Source of the DNA: Spirosoma oryzae
GTDB taxonomy: Bacteria > Bacteroidota > Bacteroidia > Cytophagales > Spirosomataceae
Direction of reading: 5' to 3'
Assembly (NCBI RefSeq): GCF_003002825.1
Contig: NZ_PVTE01000006.1
Span: forward strand, 248,001-312,000
DNA: 64,000 nucleotides
The notes beneath the pieces were generated by a model, which saw nothing but the letters and a program-made list of their open reading frames with translations, ran no database searches and had not been told where the DNA came from. The translations under genes and the position numbers were made by a program. Below, in pieces: positions 1,329 to 36,799 of the stretch (positions within the stretch are counted from its first letter, which is position 1; each line of letters starts with the position of its first letter).

Positions 1329-1343
1329 CCAAAGTTCGTACCG
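1329..1343 (-). promoter_or_regulatory. Sigma-54-like promoter of partial permease
   Basis: Read on the minus strand this is CGGTACGAACTTTGG, a GG-N10-GG version of the sigma-54 consensus TGGCACG-N4-TTGC. The start codon is 61 bases from the -24 GG. The -12 second base is G rather than C, so the match alone is moderate. Support comes from its spacing to the operator (57 bp), shared with four other units in the window. Confidence 0.6.
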
Positions 1344-1398
1344 TAAAGTATAACTAGTTGATTAGTAGTGGTTTGTTTGTTTGGGTGGTTTAAATTAT

Positions 1399-1434
1399 GT
1401 CCGTAATTGGACGAAGTGACTTCCCGGACCGGAC
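1399..1434 (-). promoter_or_regulatory. Tandem operator (enhancer-like), copy a
   Basis: 1399-1412 reads GTCCG-TAAT-TGGAC, a near-perfect inverted repeat with one mismatch to GTCCG-N4-CGGAC. A second, degenerate element at 1421-1434 keeps only the right arm CGGAC. The 22-bp spacing puts both on roughly the same face of the helix, as for paired sites of NtrC-type activators. Confidence 0.7.
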
Positions 1435-1637
1435 AGTTAGCTAACCGATTGTCAGTCAGTGGGTAGCGCATCGTCAATATCGGGATCTCTGCCTACTGAT
1501 TGATTATATAGATATTATATATGAAATAATAAAACAAATCAATTTGATAGATATGGTAATTGTCCGTAAACTTGTCGGGTCAAACAAAGCGCGCATACAC
1601 GAACGTGCCGCTAAGCAATCATTACTAGTCTACTCTT

Positions 1638-3932
1638 ATGGACAACTATTCAGGTGACATCAGCAAGTGCCCGGTTTACGGTGGTGCTCAGACCAACGGA
1701 GCGGCCGAAAAAACGAACGCTGCTGGTAATGGCATGCAAAACCGCGATTGGTGGCCTAACCAGTTGAAAGTTAACCTGCTTCGGCAACACTCGTCGGCAT
1801 CGAACCCGATGGGTGAATCGTTCAACTATGCTGAAGAATTCAAAAGCCTTGACCTGGAGGCTGTAAAGCAGGATCTGCACGCGCTGATGACCGATTCGCA
1901 GGATTGGTGGCCTGCTGACTTTGGTCACTACGGTCCGCTGTTCATACGGATGGCCTGGCACAGCGCGGGTACCTATCGCATCGGTGACGGCCGGGGGGGT
2001 GCAGGCGCTGGTCAGCAGCGGTTTGCTCCGCTCAACAGCTGGCCCGATAACGTTAGCCTCGACAAGGCGCGCCGGCTGCTGTGGCCGATCAAGCAGAAGT
2101 ACGGTCGTAAAATTTCGTGGGCCGATCTGCTGATTCTGACCGGTAACGTAGCACTGGAGTCGATGGGCTTCAAGACCTTCGGTTTTGCCGGTGGCCGGGC
2201 CGACGTGTGGGAGCCTGAACTGGATGTATACTGGGGTGCGGAAGATAAATGGCTGGGTAGCGACAAACGCTATGCGCGCGGCTCGGAAGGCGTCGACGAA
2301 AATCACGGCGTAGTGGTGTCGGACGACGATGCCGACGGCAAACTGCACAGCCGTAACCTGGAACAACCGCTGGCAGCCGCCAACATGGGGCTGATCTACG
2401 TGAACCCGGAAGGACCGGACGGTAACCCCGATCCGATCGCTGCGGCCCATGACATTCGGCAGACCTTCGGTCGGATGGCGATGAACGACGAAGAAACGGT
2501 AGCGCTGATCGCTGGTGGGCACAGCTTTGGTAAAACCCACGGTGCCGCTCCATCAGAACACGTTGGCGCTGATCCGGAAGCTGCCGATCTGGAGTCGCAG
2601 GGCTTTGGCTGGGCGAACTCGTTCGGCAGCGGTAAAGGGGCCGATACGATCACCAGTGGGCTGGAAGTAACCTGGACGACCACGCCGACGCAGTGGAGCA
2701 ACAACTACTTCGAGAACCTGTTCAACTTCGAGTGGGAACTGACCAAGAGCCCCGGCGGTGCGCATCAGTGGGTAGCGAAGGATGCCGAGAACACGATTCC
2801 GGACGCGTATGATGCCAGCAAGAAACACCGGCCAACGATGTTGACGACGGATCTGTCGATGAAGATGGACCCGGCCTACGAAAAAATCTCGCGGCACTTC
2901 CTGGAAAACCCGGATGCCTTTGCGGATGCGTTTGCGCGTGCCTGGTTCAAACTGACGCACCGCGACATGGGTCCGATCGCCCGTTACCTGGGTCCGGACG
3001 TGCCGCAGGAAGAACTGATCTGGCAAGATCCGATTCCGGCCGTGAACCACGAACTGATCGACGACAGCGACGTTGCTGCGCTGAAAGCCAATATCCTGGC
3101 GTCGGGTCTGACGATCCCGCAACTGGTATCGACCGCCTGGGCATCGGCGTCGACCTTCCGGGGTTCGGATAAGCGCGGTGGTGCCAACGGCGGACGTATC
3201 CGGCTGGCTCCGCAGAAAGACTGGGAGGCCAACAACCCGGCTCAGCTGGCAAAGGTGCTGGGTACGCTGGAAAGCATCCAGGAGGAGTTCAACAGCACCC
3301 AGACGGGTGGTAAAAAAGTATCGCTGGCCGATCTGATCGTGCTGGCCGGTAGTGCCGCTGTCGAGAAAGCCGCGCAAGCCGCCGGTGTCTCGGTTACGGT
3401 GCCGTTTACGCCCGGTCGGATGGACGCGTCAGCGGAGCAGACCGACGTCGAGTCATTCGCCGTGCTGGAGCCGATCGCCGATGGCTTCCGCAACTACCTG
3501 AAAAAGAAATACACGGTATCGACCGAAGAGTTGCTGATCGACAAGGCACAACTGCTGACGCTGACGGCCCCCGAACTGACGGTGCTGGTCGGTGGTATGC
3601 GCGCCCTGAACGCCAACTTCGACGGTTCGAACCTCGGTATCTTCACCGACCGGCCGGAAGTGCTGACCAACGATTTTTTCGTGAATCTGCTCGACATGCG
3701 GACCGCCTGGAAAGCGACGGCCGATCACAAAGAGGTATTCGAAGGTCGCGACCGGGCAACGGGCGAACTGAAATGGACCGGTACCCGTGCCGATCTCGTG
3801 TTCGGCTCGAACTCAGAACTGCGCGTAATTGCCGAAGTATACGCCAGCTCCGACGCCAACGAGAAGTTCGTGAACGATTTCGTAGCGGCCTGGAGCAAAG
3901 TAATGATGCTGGATCGCTTCGAACTGGCTTAA
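1638..3932 (+). CDS. katG: Catalase-peroxidase KatG
   Basis: Bifunctional heme enzyme that disproportionates hydrogen peroxide and also has peroxidase activity; cytoplasmic. The 764 residues match the family's ~720-760. The distal heme pocket motif [11 protein letters not shown] (Arg, Trp, His) is near residue 100, the adduct Tyr is in [11 protein letters not shown] near 255, and the proximal heme ligand His is in [11 protein letters not shown] near 295. The second, degenerate peroxidase half follows and is complete. The start at [13 protein letters not shown] fits the usual KatG N terminus. It is monocistronic, divergent from the permease, and ends in a hairpin terminator. Oxidative-stress control is expected for the family, but I could not identify an operator. 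Confidence 0.98.
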
Positions 3933-3956
3933 GTCACTAGTGTGAATGGCAATAGT

Positions 3957-3990
3957 AAGGCCGGCCCGGTTGGGTCGGCCTTAGCTGTTT
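3957..3990 (+). terminator. Rho-independent terminator of katG
   Basis: Inverted arms AAGGCCG (3957-3963) and CGGCCTT (3976-3982), with an inner CCC/GGG pairing, followed by a short T run. It lies 24 bases after the katG stop codon. Confidence 0.8.
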
Positions 3991-35370: not shown

Positions 35371-35372
35371 AA

Positions 35373-36620
35373 TTAGAAATTCAGTACCTCGTTGTCGCCG
35401 AAATTCTCGTACGAACTGGTGATGACCTGATCGCCGGGTTCCAGACCCGACAGTACTTCGTAAAATTCGGGGTTCTTACGGCCCAGCGTGATGCTGCGTT
35501 TCACGGCCCGCTTACCGGTTTTGTCGAGCACGTATACCCAGTTGCCACCCGTGTCGGAGAAGAAGCCACCCACCGGCAGCAGCGTGGCCTTGGCCGCTTT
35601 GCCCAGTTCCAATTGTATCGGCGACGATTGGCCACGCTTGATGCCTTGGGGTGCCCCCTGTGGGAAAATCATGTCGACCTCAAACCGGCCGCTTTTTACT
35701 TCCGGGTACACCCGGCTGATGCTGAGTGGATAGTTCTTGCCGTTGAATTCGAAGGTGCCGTTCAAGCCCGCGAATACCCGGCTGATGTAATGTTCATCGA
35801 CCCCGACACGCATCTTGAAGCCGTTCATGTCATCGATCTGCCCGATGTTCTGGCCCCGGTTGATGTTCGAGCCAACTTCTACGTCGATACTCGACAACTG
35901 CCCCGATACGGGGGCTTTGACGACCAGGTTGTCGAGCGTCTGCTGCCAGAGGGCTACGTTGCGCTGCGTGCGGTTCAGCGTTCCTTCGAGTTGTTTAATC
36001 TGAATCTTGGCGTTGTCTTCCTGATACTTCTGCGATTCGATGTCGATTTTGCGCTGTCCGACCAGCCGTTCGTAGGCTCGTTTGGCTTTTAGGTAATCTT
36101 CCTCCGACACGACTTTATCCTTGTACAGCTTGCTCTGCCGGTCGTAGGTGTCTTTGGCCTGATCGATTTGGGCTTCGAGGTCGGCGAGGTTTTTTCGCAG
36201 CGTAAACCGCTCGATTTGCAGGCGTTGGCGCGTGTTCTGCAATTCGTTGACGAGCCGGTTGGCTTCGGTTTCCGATTGCAGGAAGCTGAGTTTGAGGCTC
36301 TGATTTTCCAGTTTCAGCAGTACGTCGCCCTTCTTCACCGTGCTCCCCCCCTCGACCAGCTTCTGCGTTACGTAGCCGCCTTCGATCGCGTCGAGCCGGA
36401 TGGTTTTCAGCGGCTGAACAACGCCTGTTACGGCGATGAAATCTTCGAATGGACCCGTCGATACGGCCGACACGGTGATCTTATCTTTCTCGACATTCAA
36501 TGCAGAACGACGGTCGGCGAAGACAAACGTGTACAGTAAAAGAGCCGTTAACAAGGTGCCGCCCCCAACGAGGGCAAGGCGCTGATTTGTCCAGAAACGT
36601 TTAGGTAAGACGCGATCCAT
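35373..36620 (-). CDS. HlyD/MacA-type membrane-fusion adaptor
   Basis: 415 residues from ATG 36620 (an in-frame ATG at 36683 would sit at or before the predicted transcript start). A single membrane helix near residues 18-38 (LALVGGGTLLTALLLYTF) anchors it. The lipoyl-like half GYVTQKLVEGGSTVKKGDVL is near 90, followed by a long coiled coil (about 110-220). The second lipoyl half NLVVKAPVSGQLSSIDVEVGS is near 235, and a beta-barrel and membrane-proximal domain end the chain. It bridges the permease to the outer envelope in tripartite pumps. It is the first gene of the adaptor-ATPase-P10 unit. There is no lipobox, so it is not a lipoprotein. Confidence 0.93.
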   Translation of the reverse strand: MDRVLPKRFWTNQRLALVGGGTLLTALLLYTFVFADRRSALNVEKDKITVSAVSTGPFEDFIAVTGVVQPLKTIRLDAIEGGYVTQKLVEGGSTVKKGDVLLKLENQSLKLSFLQSETEANRLVNELQNTRQRLQIERFTLRKNLADLEAQIDQAKDTYDRQSKLYKDKVVSEEDYLKAKRAYERLVGQRKIDIESQKYQEDNAKIQIKQLEGTLNRTQRNVALWQQTLDNLVVKAPVSGQLSSIDVEVGSNINRGQNIGQIDDMNGFKMRVGVDEHYISRVFAGLNGTFEFNGKNYPLSISRVYPEVKSGRFEVDMIFPQGAPQGIKRGQSSPIQLELGKAAKATLLPVGGFFSDTGGNWVYVLDKTGKRAVKRSITLGRKNPEFYEVLSGLEPGDQVITSSYENFGDNEVLNF

Positions 36621-36692
36621 GTGTTCAATGAGCGAATGAGTGAATGTTGACTGAGCGAGTAGCTTCGCTTCTTCATTCGCCATTTACTACTG

Positions 36693-36708
36693 AACCAATG
36701 CTATGCCA
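36693..36708 (-). promoter_or_regulatory. Sigma-54-like promoter of adaptor-ATPase-P10 unit
   Basis: The minus strand reads TGGCATAGCATTGGTT. The -24 half TGGCATA is the same as in the P7 promoter; the -12 half TTGG is one base closer than ideal. The GG is 57 bp from the operator and 87 bases from ATG 36620. Confidence 0.6.
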
Positions 36709-36763
36709 ATCTTGGTGGATGCTTGATTGTCAGTAAGTTGGATAGATTGTTTTGATGTGGGCT

Positions 36764-36799
36764 GTCCGATAGCGGACGATGCGTGTCCGGTCGGTGAAC
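36764..36799 (-). promoter_or_regulatory. Tandem operator, copy e
   Basis: 36764-36777 is a perfect inverted repeat, GTCCG-ATAG-CGGAC. The distal element starts 21 bp on at 36785 as GTCCG-GTCGG-TGAAC, with a 5-base centre. It abuts the stop codon of the glycosyltransferase gene at 36800. Confidence 0.75.

Follow-up and report, generated by a model that had tools for sequence, protein, structure and literature searches.

A candidate sigma-54 regulon of permeases, secreted proteins and an exporter unit in Spirosoma oryzae

The question raised by the locus

Do the ATPase-less duplicated permeases of the FtsX/ADOP type, numerous and poorly explained, obey a common switch, which would give them a shared condition? 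The question is raised by a stretch of 64,000 nucleotides from Spirosoma oryzae (contig NZ_PVTE01000006.1, positions 248,001 to 312,000; G000:C6:248001-312000 in our numbering), hereafter the window, which is part of a 6.57-Mb genome. Its left 37 kb carry ten full duplicated permeases of the MacB/FtsX type and one cut at the window edge, together with an ABC ATPase and a HlyD-type adaptor. Divergent from these genes runs that of a response regulator of the NtrC type (38603–40006, + strand), with a receiver, a sigma-54 AAA+ domain and a Fis-type helix-turn-helix. A sequence-only reading of this DNA had proposed that five regions upstream of these genes share one promoter–operator architecture and define a sigma-54 regulon of permeases. 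We find it very probable that the five regions, P1 to P5, are sigma-54 promoters of one regulon, the activator being the 38603 regulator, which would bind a pair of palindromes in each. Comparison of sequences establishes the architecture, its conservation, its association with these genes, its helical phasing and the presence of RpoN.

Five regions of one build

All five regions lie on the − strand and appear built like sigma-54 promoters. P1 combines an enhancer pair (1399–1434; proximal copy GTCCAATTACGGAC at 1412–1399, distal copy GTCCGGTCCGGGAA at 1434–1421, 22 bp apart) with a sigma-54-type promoter, ACGGTACGAACTTTGGT (1328–1344), which heads the permease that runs from 1281 and the next one past the window edge. 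The pair is spaced by 21 bp in the four other regions. In P2 (pair 14540–14574, promoter TTGGTACGACTTTGGAC at 14471–14487) the promoter heads a co-directional run of four permeases (12043–14424, 9493–11904, 7012–9435 and 4584–6944), and in P3 (pair 24978–25012, promoter GTGGCATAGTAGTTGAC at 24908–24924) it heads three (22464–24875, 20034–22451 and 17592–20021), in a unit that may possibly extend to the histidine kinase at 15858 and the LytTR response regulator at 14626, both of which sit within the permease cluster. P4 (pair 31784–31818, promoter ATGGCACGGCCTTCGAT at 31714–31730) heads a presumably secreted protein (31137–31688, internal start), then the permeases at 28218 and 25803. Finally, P5 (pair 36764–36798, its distal copy weak, promoter TTGGCATAGCATTGGTT at 36693–36709) heads the tripartite unit made of the HlyD-type adaptor (35373–36620), the ABC ATPase (34546–35223) and a duplicated MacB_PCD–FtsX permease (31977–34334), all three on the − strand.

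The five palindromes sit where they had been placed: those at 14540, 24978 and 36764 match GTCCG-N4-CGGAC exactly, those at 1399 and 31784 with one mismatch. The second copies announced further upstream are likewise present, at 22, 21, 21, 21 and 21 bp from P1 to P5, with 1, 1, 1, 1 and 2 mismatches to GTCC-N6-GGAC. The GG of the −24 element, at 1342, 14485, 24922, 31728 and 36707, lies 57, 55, 56, 56 and 57 bp from the palindrome, as had been measured, and in P1 the element itself is CGGTA and not TGGYA. The distances to the start codon, 61, 61, 47, 40 and 87 bases, fall within the 40 to 87 bases first reported, given the starts 24875, 31688 and 36620, which match paralogues and relatives and were used in place of each frame's first ATG.

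The pair against chance

How unlikely is this geometry? The lone palindrome is not enriched: the window holds 47 matches (at most 2 mismatches) against 42.6 in shuffled sequences (standard deviation 7.0), and the genome 257 sites (at most 1 mismatch), below the 414 of the reversed control, so that the single palindrome was dropped as evidence. The pair at 21 bp behaves differently, with five matches in the window (at most 3 mismatches), of which four are promoters and one is an overlapping shift; shuffled sequences average 0.33, and not one of 100 had five. The 22-bp pair of P1, taken alone, is not significant in the window, where it has one match, as do 29 of 100 shuffles. The view that the geometry could hardly arise by chance is thus upheld for the 21-bp pair in the window, and not for the lone palindrome or, taken alone, the 22-bp pair of P1. 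Judged from sequence, the signal is in the best pairs and in the spacing.

Scanned genome-wide at the 21-bp spacing, pairs with at most two mismatches number six, and all six precede permease or exporter units: four are in the window, one (C1:41107) lies before a permease and one (C9:103357) before a PadR gene and a permease. The scan for the motif before other permease paralogues, which the sequence-only reading had proposed as a check, therefore came out positive, since both out-of-window pairs precede permease units (G000:C1:41303 and G000:C9:104177). Among the 16 long permease genes counted in the genome, 14 belong to runs of one direction with a site at their head. The two others are C1:142256, which neighbours a paralogous regulator, and C4:297871, whose N-terminus is different. 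Seven of eight short MacB-type loci were inspected, and all seven lack the palindrome (at most 1 mismatch). Two further sites combine a −24 element and TTG with a proximal palindrome that is exact and a distal copy that is poor: C34:10229 precedes a lone ATPase, and C37:251 lies roughly 1 kb before a TolC–HlyD pair. Between the latter site and TolC (locus L138, 251–1300) the opposite strand carries a long open frame (1150–343), to which the transcript would therefore run antisense; the distance of about 1 kb between site and TolC is kept in relatives (also L172, L191 and L207). A regulon of permeases, as first proposed, is accordingly supported for the permease units and too narrow as a whole, for secreted DUF3244-like proteins, a lone ATPase, TolC–HlyD and PadR–permease operons also appear to belong to it.

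Beyond this genome, exact pairs (gap 6 to 9) were found in 24 of the 36 same-genus genomes and in one of 23 others, with 73 sites against one for the reversed pattern. The absence of an exact pair does not mean the absence of a site, because the genome of S. oryzae itself has no exact pair. The one outsider (G052, another family of the same order; L282–L284) has three exact pairs with TGGCA at a long spacing of 82 to 84; two of these sites directly precede permeases.

The candidate activator and its neighbourhood

Which protein would read the pair? The 38603 regulator has its three domains (PF00072, PF00158 and PF02954) above cut-off, and among the 80 named loci kept it is closest to proteins of Spirosoma telluris (75%) and Fibrisoma montanum (70%). 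Its best match is at least 75% identical in 23 of 24 same-genus genomes (63% in G002; in two the match is in pieces). Downstream of it, the probable cognate histidine kinase (42613–43968, + strand) has a HATPase domain above cut-off, a weak PAS match and a hydrophobic N-terminal stretch; the domain search found no outer sensor domain in it. A homologue of this kinase adjoins the regulator in Fibrisoma and Chitinophaga, where the order permease–ATPase–HlyD, divergent from regulator–kinase, is also kept; Fulvivirga has ATPase–HlyD divergent from regulator–kinase, and in a metagenome-assembled genome (MAG) of Acidobacteria the same genes flank the matched regulator. In the window (40163–43968) and in three relatives (loci compared: L057 and L143–L152) regulator and kinase are separated by genes for an acyltransferase and an acyl-ACP desaturase, a position that points toward membrane lipids, as a hint only; in Fibrisoma and Chitinophaga regulator and kinase are adjacent, without them.

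The 80 named loci were scored for GTNCG-N4-CGNAC twice, TGGYA and TTG, with a maximum of 24. Six of them (Fibrisoma, two Chitinophaga, L070, Sphingomonas L112 and L134) reach at least 21, against 0 of 972 random sequences, and in all six the site adjoins the regulator or the HlyD gene. In the Acidobacteria MAG (L060) the automatic best match faced away from HlyD, and the promoter directed towards HlyD was identified by eye. Presence of the pair beside regulator homologues supports its link to the 38603 regulator. A natural swap points the same way: at C3 the HlyD operon of a paralogous regulator is preceded by GTGCG-N4-CGCAC, and sites of this kind recur in the genus with the same spacing, the same type of −24/−12 and a similar middle element, so that a paralogue with its own palindrome in the same layout ties palindrome to regulator. 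The HlyD–TolC–ATPase–permease operon found there (L154, G000:C3:243000-256000, with L265–L281) looks like a second, parallel regulon.

It might be objected that the promoters are indeed of the sigma-54 type while the palindromes are bound by another activator of the NtrC family, the adjacency of 38603 being incidental. The genome does encode further such activators, including paralogues at 53% and 46% identity. Yet the pair recurs in the intergenic region by the regulator homologue in other families and phyla, the 46% paralogue is the one whose HlyD operon is preceded by GTGCG-N4-CGCAC, and an inspection of 3.7 kb at the permease next to the 53% paralogue revealed no GTCC palindrome. We consider this objection improbable, and keep the 38603 regulator as the candidate activator.

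Promoter signature and helical phasing

For the promoter we used 97 of 110 matches from six same-genus genomes, collected with the patterns GTCC-N6-GGAC-N41..56-TGGYA and N57..72. The second copy, sought at 20 to 23 bp, has at most one mismatch in 59 sites, two in 6 and three or more in 32; the former 65 are called paired, the latter 32 unpaired. At the sigma-54 register, which was not used in selection, the paired sites have T in 64, T in 59 and G in all 65 (the G is present in 17 of the 32 unpaired sites), so that GG-N10-G is present in 65 of 65, the sites having been selected on TGGYA and not on the −12. The genome has an RpoN gene, with TIGR02395 above cut-off and an ARRTVAKYRE stretch. 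With TTG at the canonical register in relatives and this RpoN gene, the sigma-54 assignment is supported.

The base that follows TTG is G in 20, A in 20, T in 14 and C in 11 of the paired sites. The −12 halves had been called atypical: it is true that the C is not conserved, but this is not odd for the lineage. In the paralogue's regulon the same position has G in 9, A in 2 and T in 1 of 12 sites at 72 to 74 nt, and five sites at 71 nt are likewise without C. The grpE gene, reported under sigma-54 control in Flavobacterium and Bacteroides (PMC12316311) and listed among sigma-54-type promoters (PMC9723704), has in other families a TGGYA-type candidate upstream in 9 of 11 loci, on a loose score without control; C follows TTG in 3 of these nine, each from a different family. 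Candidates at grpE within the genus (5 of 19 loci) were set aside as unconvincing, and a loose −24/−12 weight scan was abandoned for its too many matches. The usual C is present in L070 and L112 (sphingomonads), in L134 and in the Acidobacteria MAG. The atypical −12 thus looks like a lineage trait; the consensus given for sigma-54 is TGGCACN5-7TTGCT, and validated promoters that deviate from it are also listed (PMC12316311).

The length from the palindrome to the end of TGGYA is 63 nt in 2, 71 to 75 in 41 and 81 to 85 in 22 of the 65 paired sites (63 in 2, 71–75 in 37 and 81–85 in 20 of the 59 best; 73 in four, 83 and 84 in the 6 sites with two mismatches), and is scattered from 60 to 89 in the 32 unpaired ones. 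At a 10.5-bp period the Rayleigh vector length is 0.79 for sites with at most one mismatch (n = 59) against 0.20 for the unpaired ones (n = 32), values that are descriptive, the sites being non-independent. Successive peaks differ by about one helical turn, which is what an activator that has to face the polymerase would require. The C9 site of S. oryzae belongs to the long class (83); its permease follows the PadR-like gene and has a permease prefix domain 2. In the 81–85 class the spacer (L215–L238) shows a loose AAAA-N-GGC ... GCC-N-TTTT symmetry in place of the TGATNATCA element described below. A conserved hairpin or terminator there was considered and rejected as not general: 7 of 22 spacers fold better than shuffles by two standard deviations, with a median z of −0.78; 6 of 41 do so in the 71–75 class and 2 of 28 among unpaired sites.

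Register and phasing also bear on a second objection, that a repressor or the LytTR regulator uses the palindromes as operators on ordinary sigma-A promoters, TGGYA...TTG being an accidental match. A LytTR response regulator and a kinase do sit inside the cluster, and PadR genes head many operons of relatives. Against this stand the unselected TTG at the exact sigma-54 register, with its G in 65 of 65, and the distance from palindrome to −24, fixed in helical steps; furthermore, sigma-70-type matches show no excess in 31600–38700, the only stretch scanned for them (3 against 4.3 expected), where other types of Bacteroidota sigma-A promoters were not scanned. Ordinary operators are, we think, a very remote explanation, and sigma-54 promoters the one to retain.

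An element between enhancer and promoter

Many sites contain a third component, overlooked in the earlier reading: the phased TGATNATCA element. Among the 41 sites of the 71–75 class, 25 carry YTGATWATCAR (at least 9 of 11 positions) 28 to 31 nt ahead of the TGGYA end, and eight further windows of 4 nt each give 0 of 41. Offsets 18 and 19 give single matches, and no such peak appears in the long class. In the window the element is clear in P1 (CTACTAATCAA, 1358–1368, 9/11), P4 (TTCATAATCAA, 31743–31753, 10/11) and P5 (CTGACAATCAA, 36723–36733, 10/11), all on the − strand as is the weak one of P2 (14500–14510, 7/11); in P3 no recognisable element was found (4/11). Compared by eye and on its WATCAR part only, the consensus of IHF, WATCARNNNNTTR, resembles the middle element. 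As a search pattern, TGATWATCAR with TGGYAY and TTG was discarded, for it gave only 3 sites in 8 genomes.

What the sites precede

A regulon-type gene lies within 1.8 kb downstream of 60 of the 65 paired sites. The first such gene is PadR in 17, a permease in 15, a DUF3244-like secreted protein in 13, a small secreted protein in 7, an ATPase in 3, TolC in 2, DUF4097 in 2 and HlyD in 1; as the queries for DUF3244, DUF4097, secreted proteins and PadR came from the matches, their part of this count is partly circular, and a gene found with a transporter query (permease, ATPase, HlyD, TolC) is the first one in 21 of 65. Sites of the long-spacing class mostly precede PadR–permease operons. Unpaired sites have a regulon-type gene in 12 of 16 cases at modal spacings and in 2 of 16 at other spacings, both 1.4 to 1.5 kb away. 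Several of the regulon's most regular promoters belong to a multi-copy, presumably secreted family of about 124 amino acids that matches DUF3244 weakly (L155, L159, L161, L162, L166, L167, L181, L182, L185, L187, L208, L211 and L212); the best match of this family in S. oryzae is only 39% identical.

That the geometry is a relic of permease and promoter duplication, its function not maintained, is hardly credible: many members are tandem paralogous permeases, yet genes that are not homologous (adaptor, ATPase, DUF3244-like, DUF4097, TolC) have this architecture upstream as well, and the spacers vary in sequence and by whole helical steps in length.

Weighing a common switch

The claim that one regulon joins the permease blocks, the secreted protein and the adaptor–ATPase–permease unit thus draws support from the genome scan, from the TTG of relatives and from the linkage to the regulator. 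Several facts pull the other way. With at most three mismatches the 21-bp pair occurs at 16 places in the genome against 47 for the reversed control, and the raw count of palindrome plus TGGYA does not exceed that control in most genomes (5+8 against 6+7 in this one), so that it was dropped as evidence. The figures from relatives overstate independence because the sites share descent or arose by duplication. A poor distal copy, with 3 to 4 mismatches, is seen in some likely members (promoters of HlyD and of lone ATPases in relatives, and the C34 and C37 sites), which is also why the 32 unpaired matches are not pure background; at C34 the start codon comes only about 4 nt past the predicted transcript start. 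At −12 most paired sites lack the usual C (present in 11 of 65). Other sigma-54 activators are present in the genome, where the regulator query has 19 matches, though not every match is an activator, and the 14 of 80 named loci that beat their own 12 random sequences compare with about 6 expected by chance.

The mechanism could then run as follows. Kinase 42613, most likely, responds to the state of the membrane or of transport; the phosphorylated 38603 regulator would bind two GTCC-N6-GGAC palindromes spaced by 21 to 22 bp, with the centre of the proximal one some 63 bp (six turns) upstream of the −24 GG; the DNA would bend back, the middle YTGATWATCAR of many sites being a possible bending site for an IHF- or HU-like protein; and the AAA+ domain of the regulator would open RNA polymerase–sigma-54 at TGGYA-N6-TTG. 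Switched on would be a DarBCD-like adaptor–ATPase–permease exporter, an ATPase-less family of ADOP-like permeases and small secreted proteins. Binding of the palindromes by the 38603 regulator, dependence on sigma-54, DNA bending and a role in envelope or export are what we infer here. One may go further, on a tentative footing that we would not ourselves favour: the switch might be old, recurring by its regulator in several phyla, and drive in Spirosoma a modular exporter in which one adaptor–ATPase unit (plus a lone ATPase and a TolC–HlyD pair) serves with many interchangeable ATPase-less permeases and secreted proteins, while the sigma-54 of Bacteroidota reads a relaxed −12 (TTGN). If the relaxed −12 is true, predictors of sigma-54 promoters based on TTGC would miss many promoters of Bacteroidota.

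Comparison with known systems

An enrichment of predicted sigma-54 promoters at permeases of COG0577 has been reported for gamma-Proteobacteria, Opitutia and Bacteroidia, in a study that presents it as the first evidence of this link with FtsX-like permeases (PMC12316311; PLoS One 2025). The passages of it consulted give no activator or enhancer sequence for the permeases and do not name Cytophagia for them, and our searches of the open-licence literature brought up no description of the present regulon (activator, enhancer, extent, phasing). A common switch would name an activator and an enhancer that can be tested, point to an ATPase and an adaptor that may power the permeases, and add secreted candidate partners for them.

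The darobactin exporter DarBCD (NF038008, NF038010, NF038007) provides the best matches of the adaptor (DarC; RND_mfp is above cut-off) and of the ATPase (DarD), and the second-best of the permeases, after ADOP; unlike in DarBCD, all scores remain below the equivalog cut-offs (DarD 279 for 375, DarC 202 for 450, DarB 146–148 for 700). The permeases, in which the domain search finds MacB_PCD and FtsX twice each, match ADOP (TIGR03434) over their full length, and some ADOP have PadR regulators, as the C9 permease follows a PadR-like gene; the three permeases tested, among them that of the tripartite unit, score 345, 353 and 299 bits where the cut-off is 622, and have a sigma-54-type promoter, unlike ADOP. 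We would therefore call them ADOP-like, and do not file them as ADOP members. Systems of the NtrC family combine paired palindromic enhancers, an AAA+ response regulator, a −24/−12 promoter, an element between enhancer and promoter and an activator gene beside its target. The regulon proposed here is like them in each of these features; it differs in its targets, ADOP-like permeases and secreted proteins, in a −12 that is TTGN and not TTGC, and in an enhancer–promoter distance that falls into three helical classes, partly following gene type.

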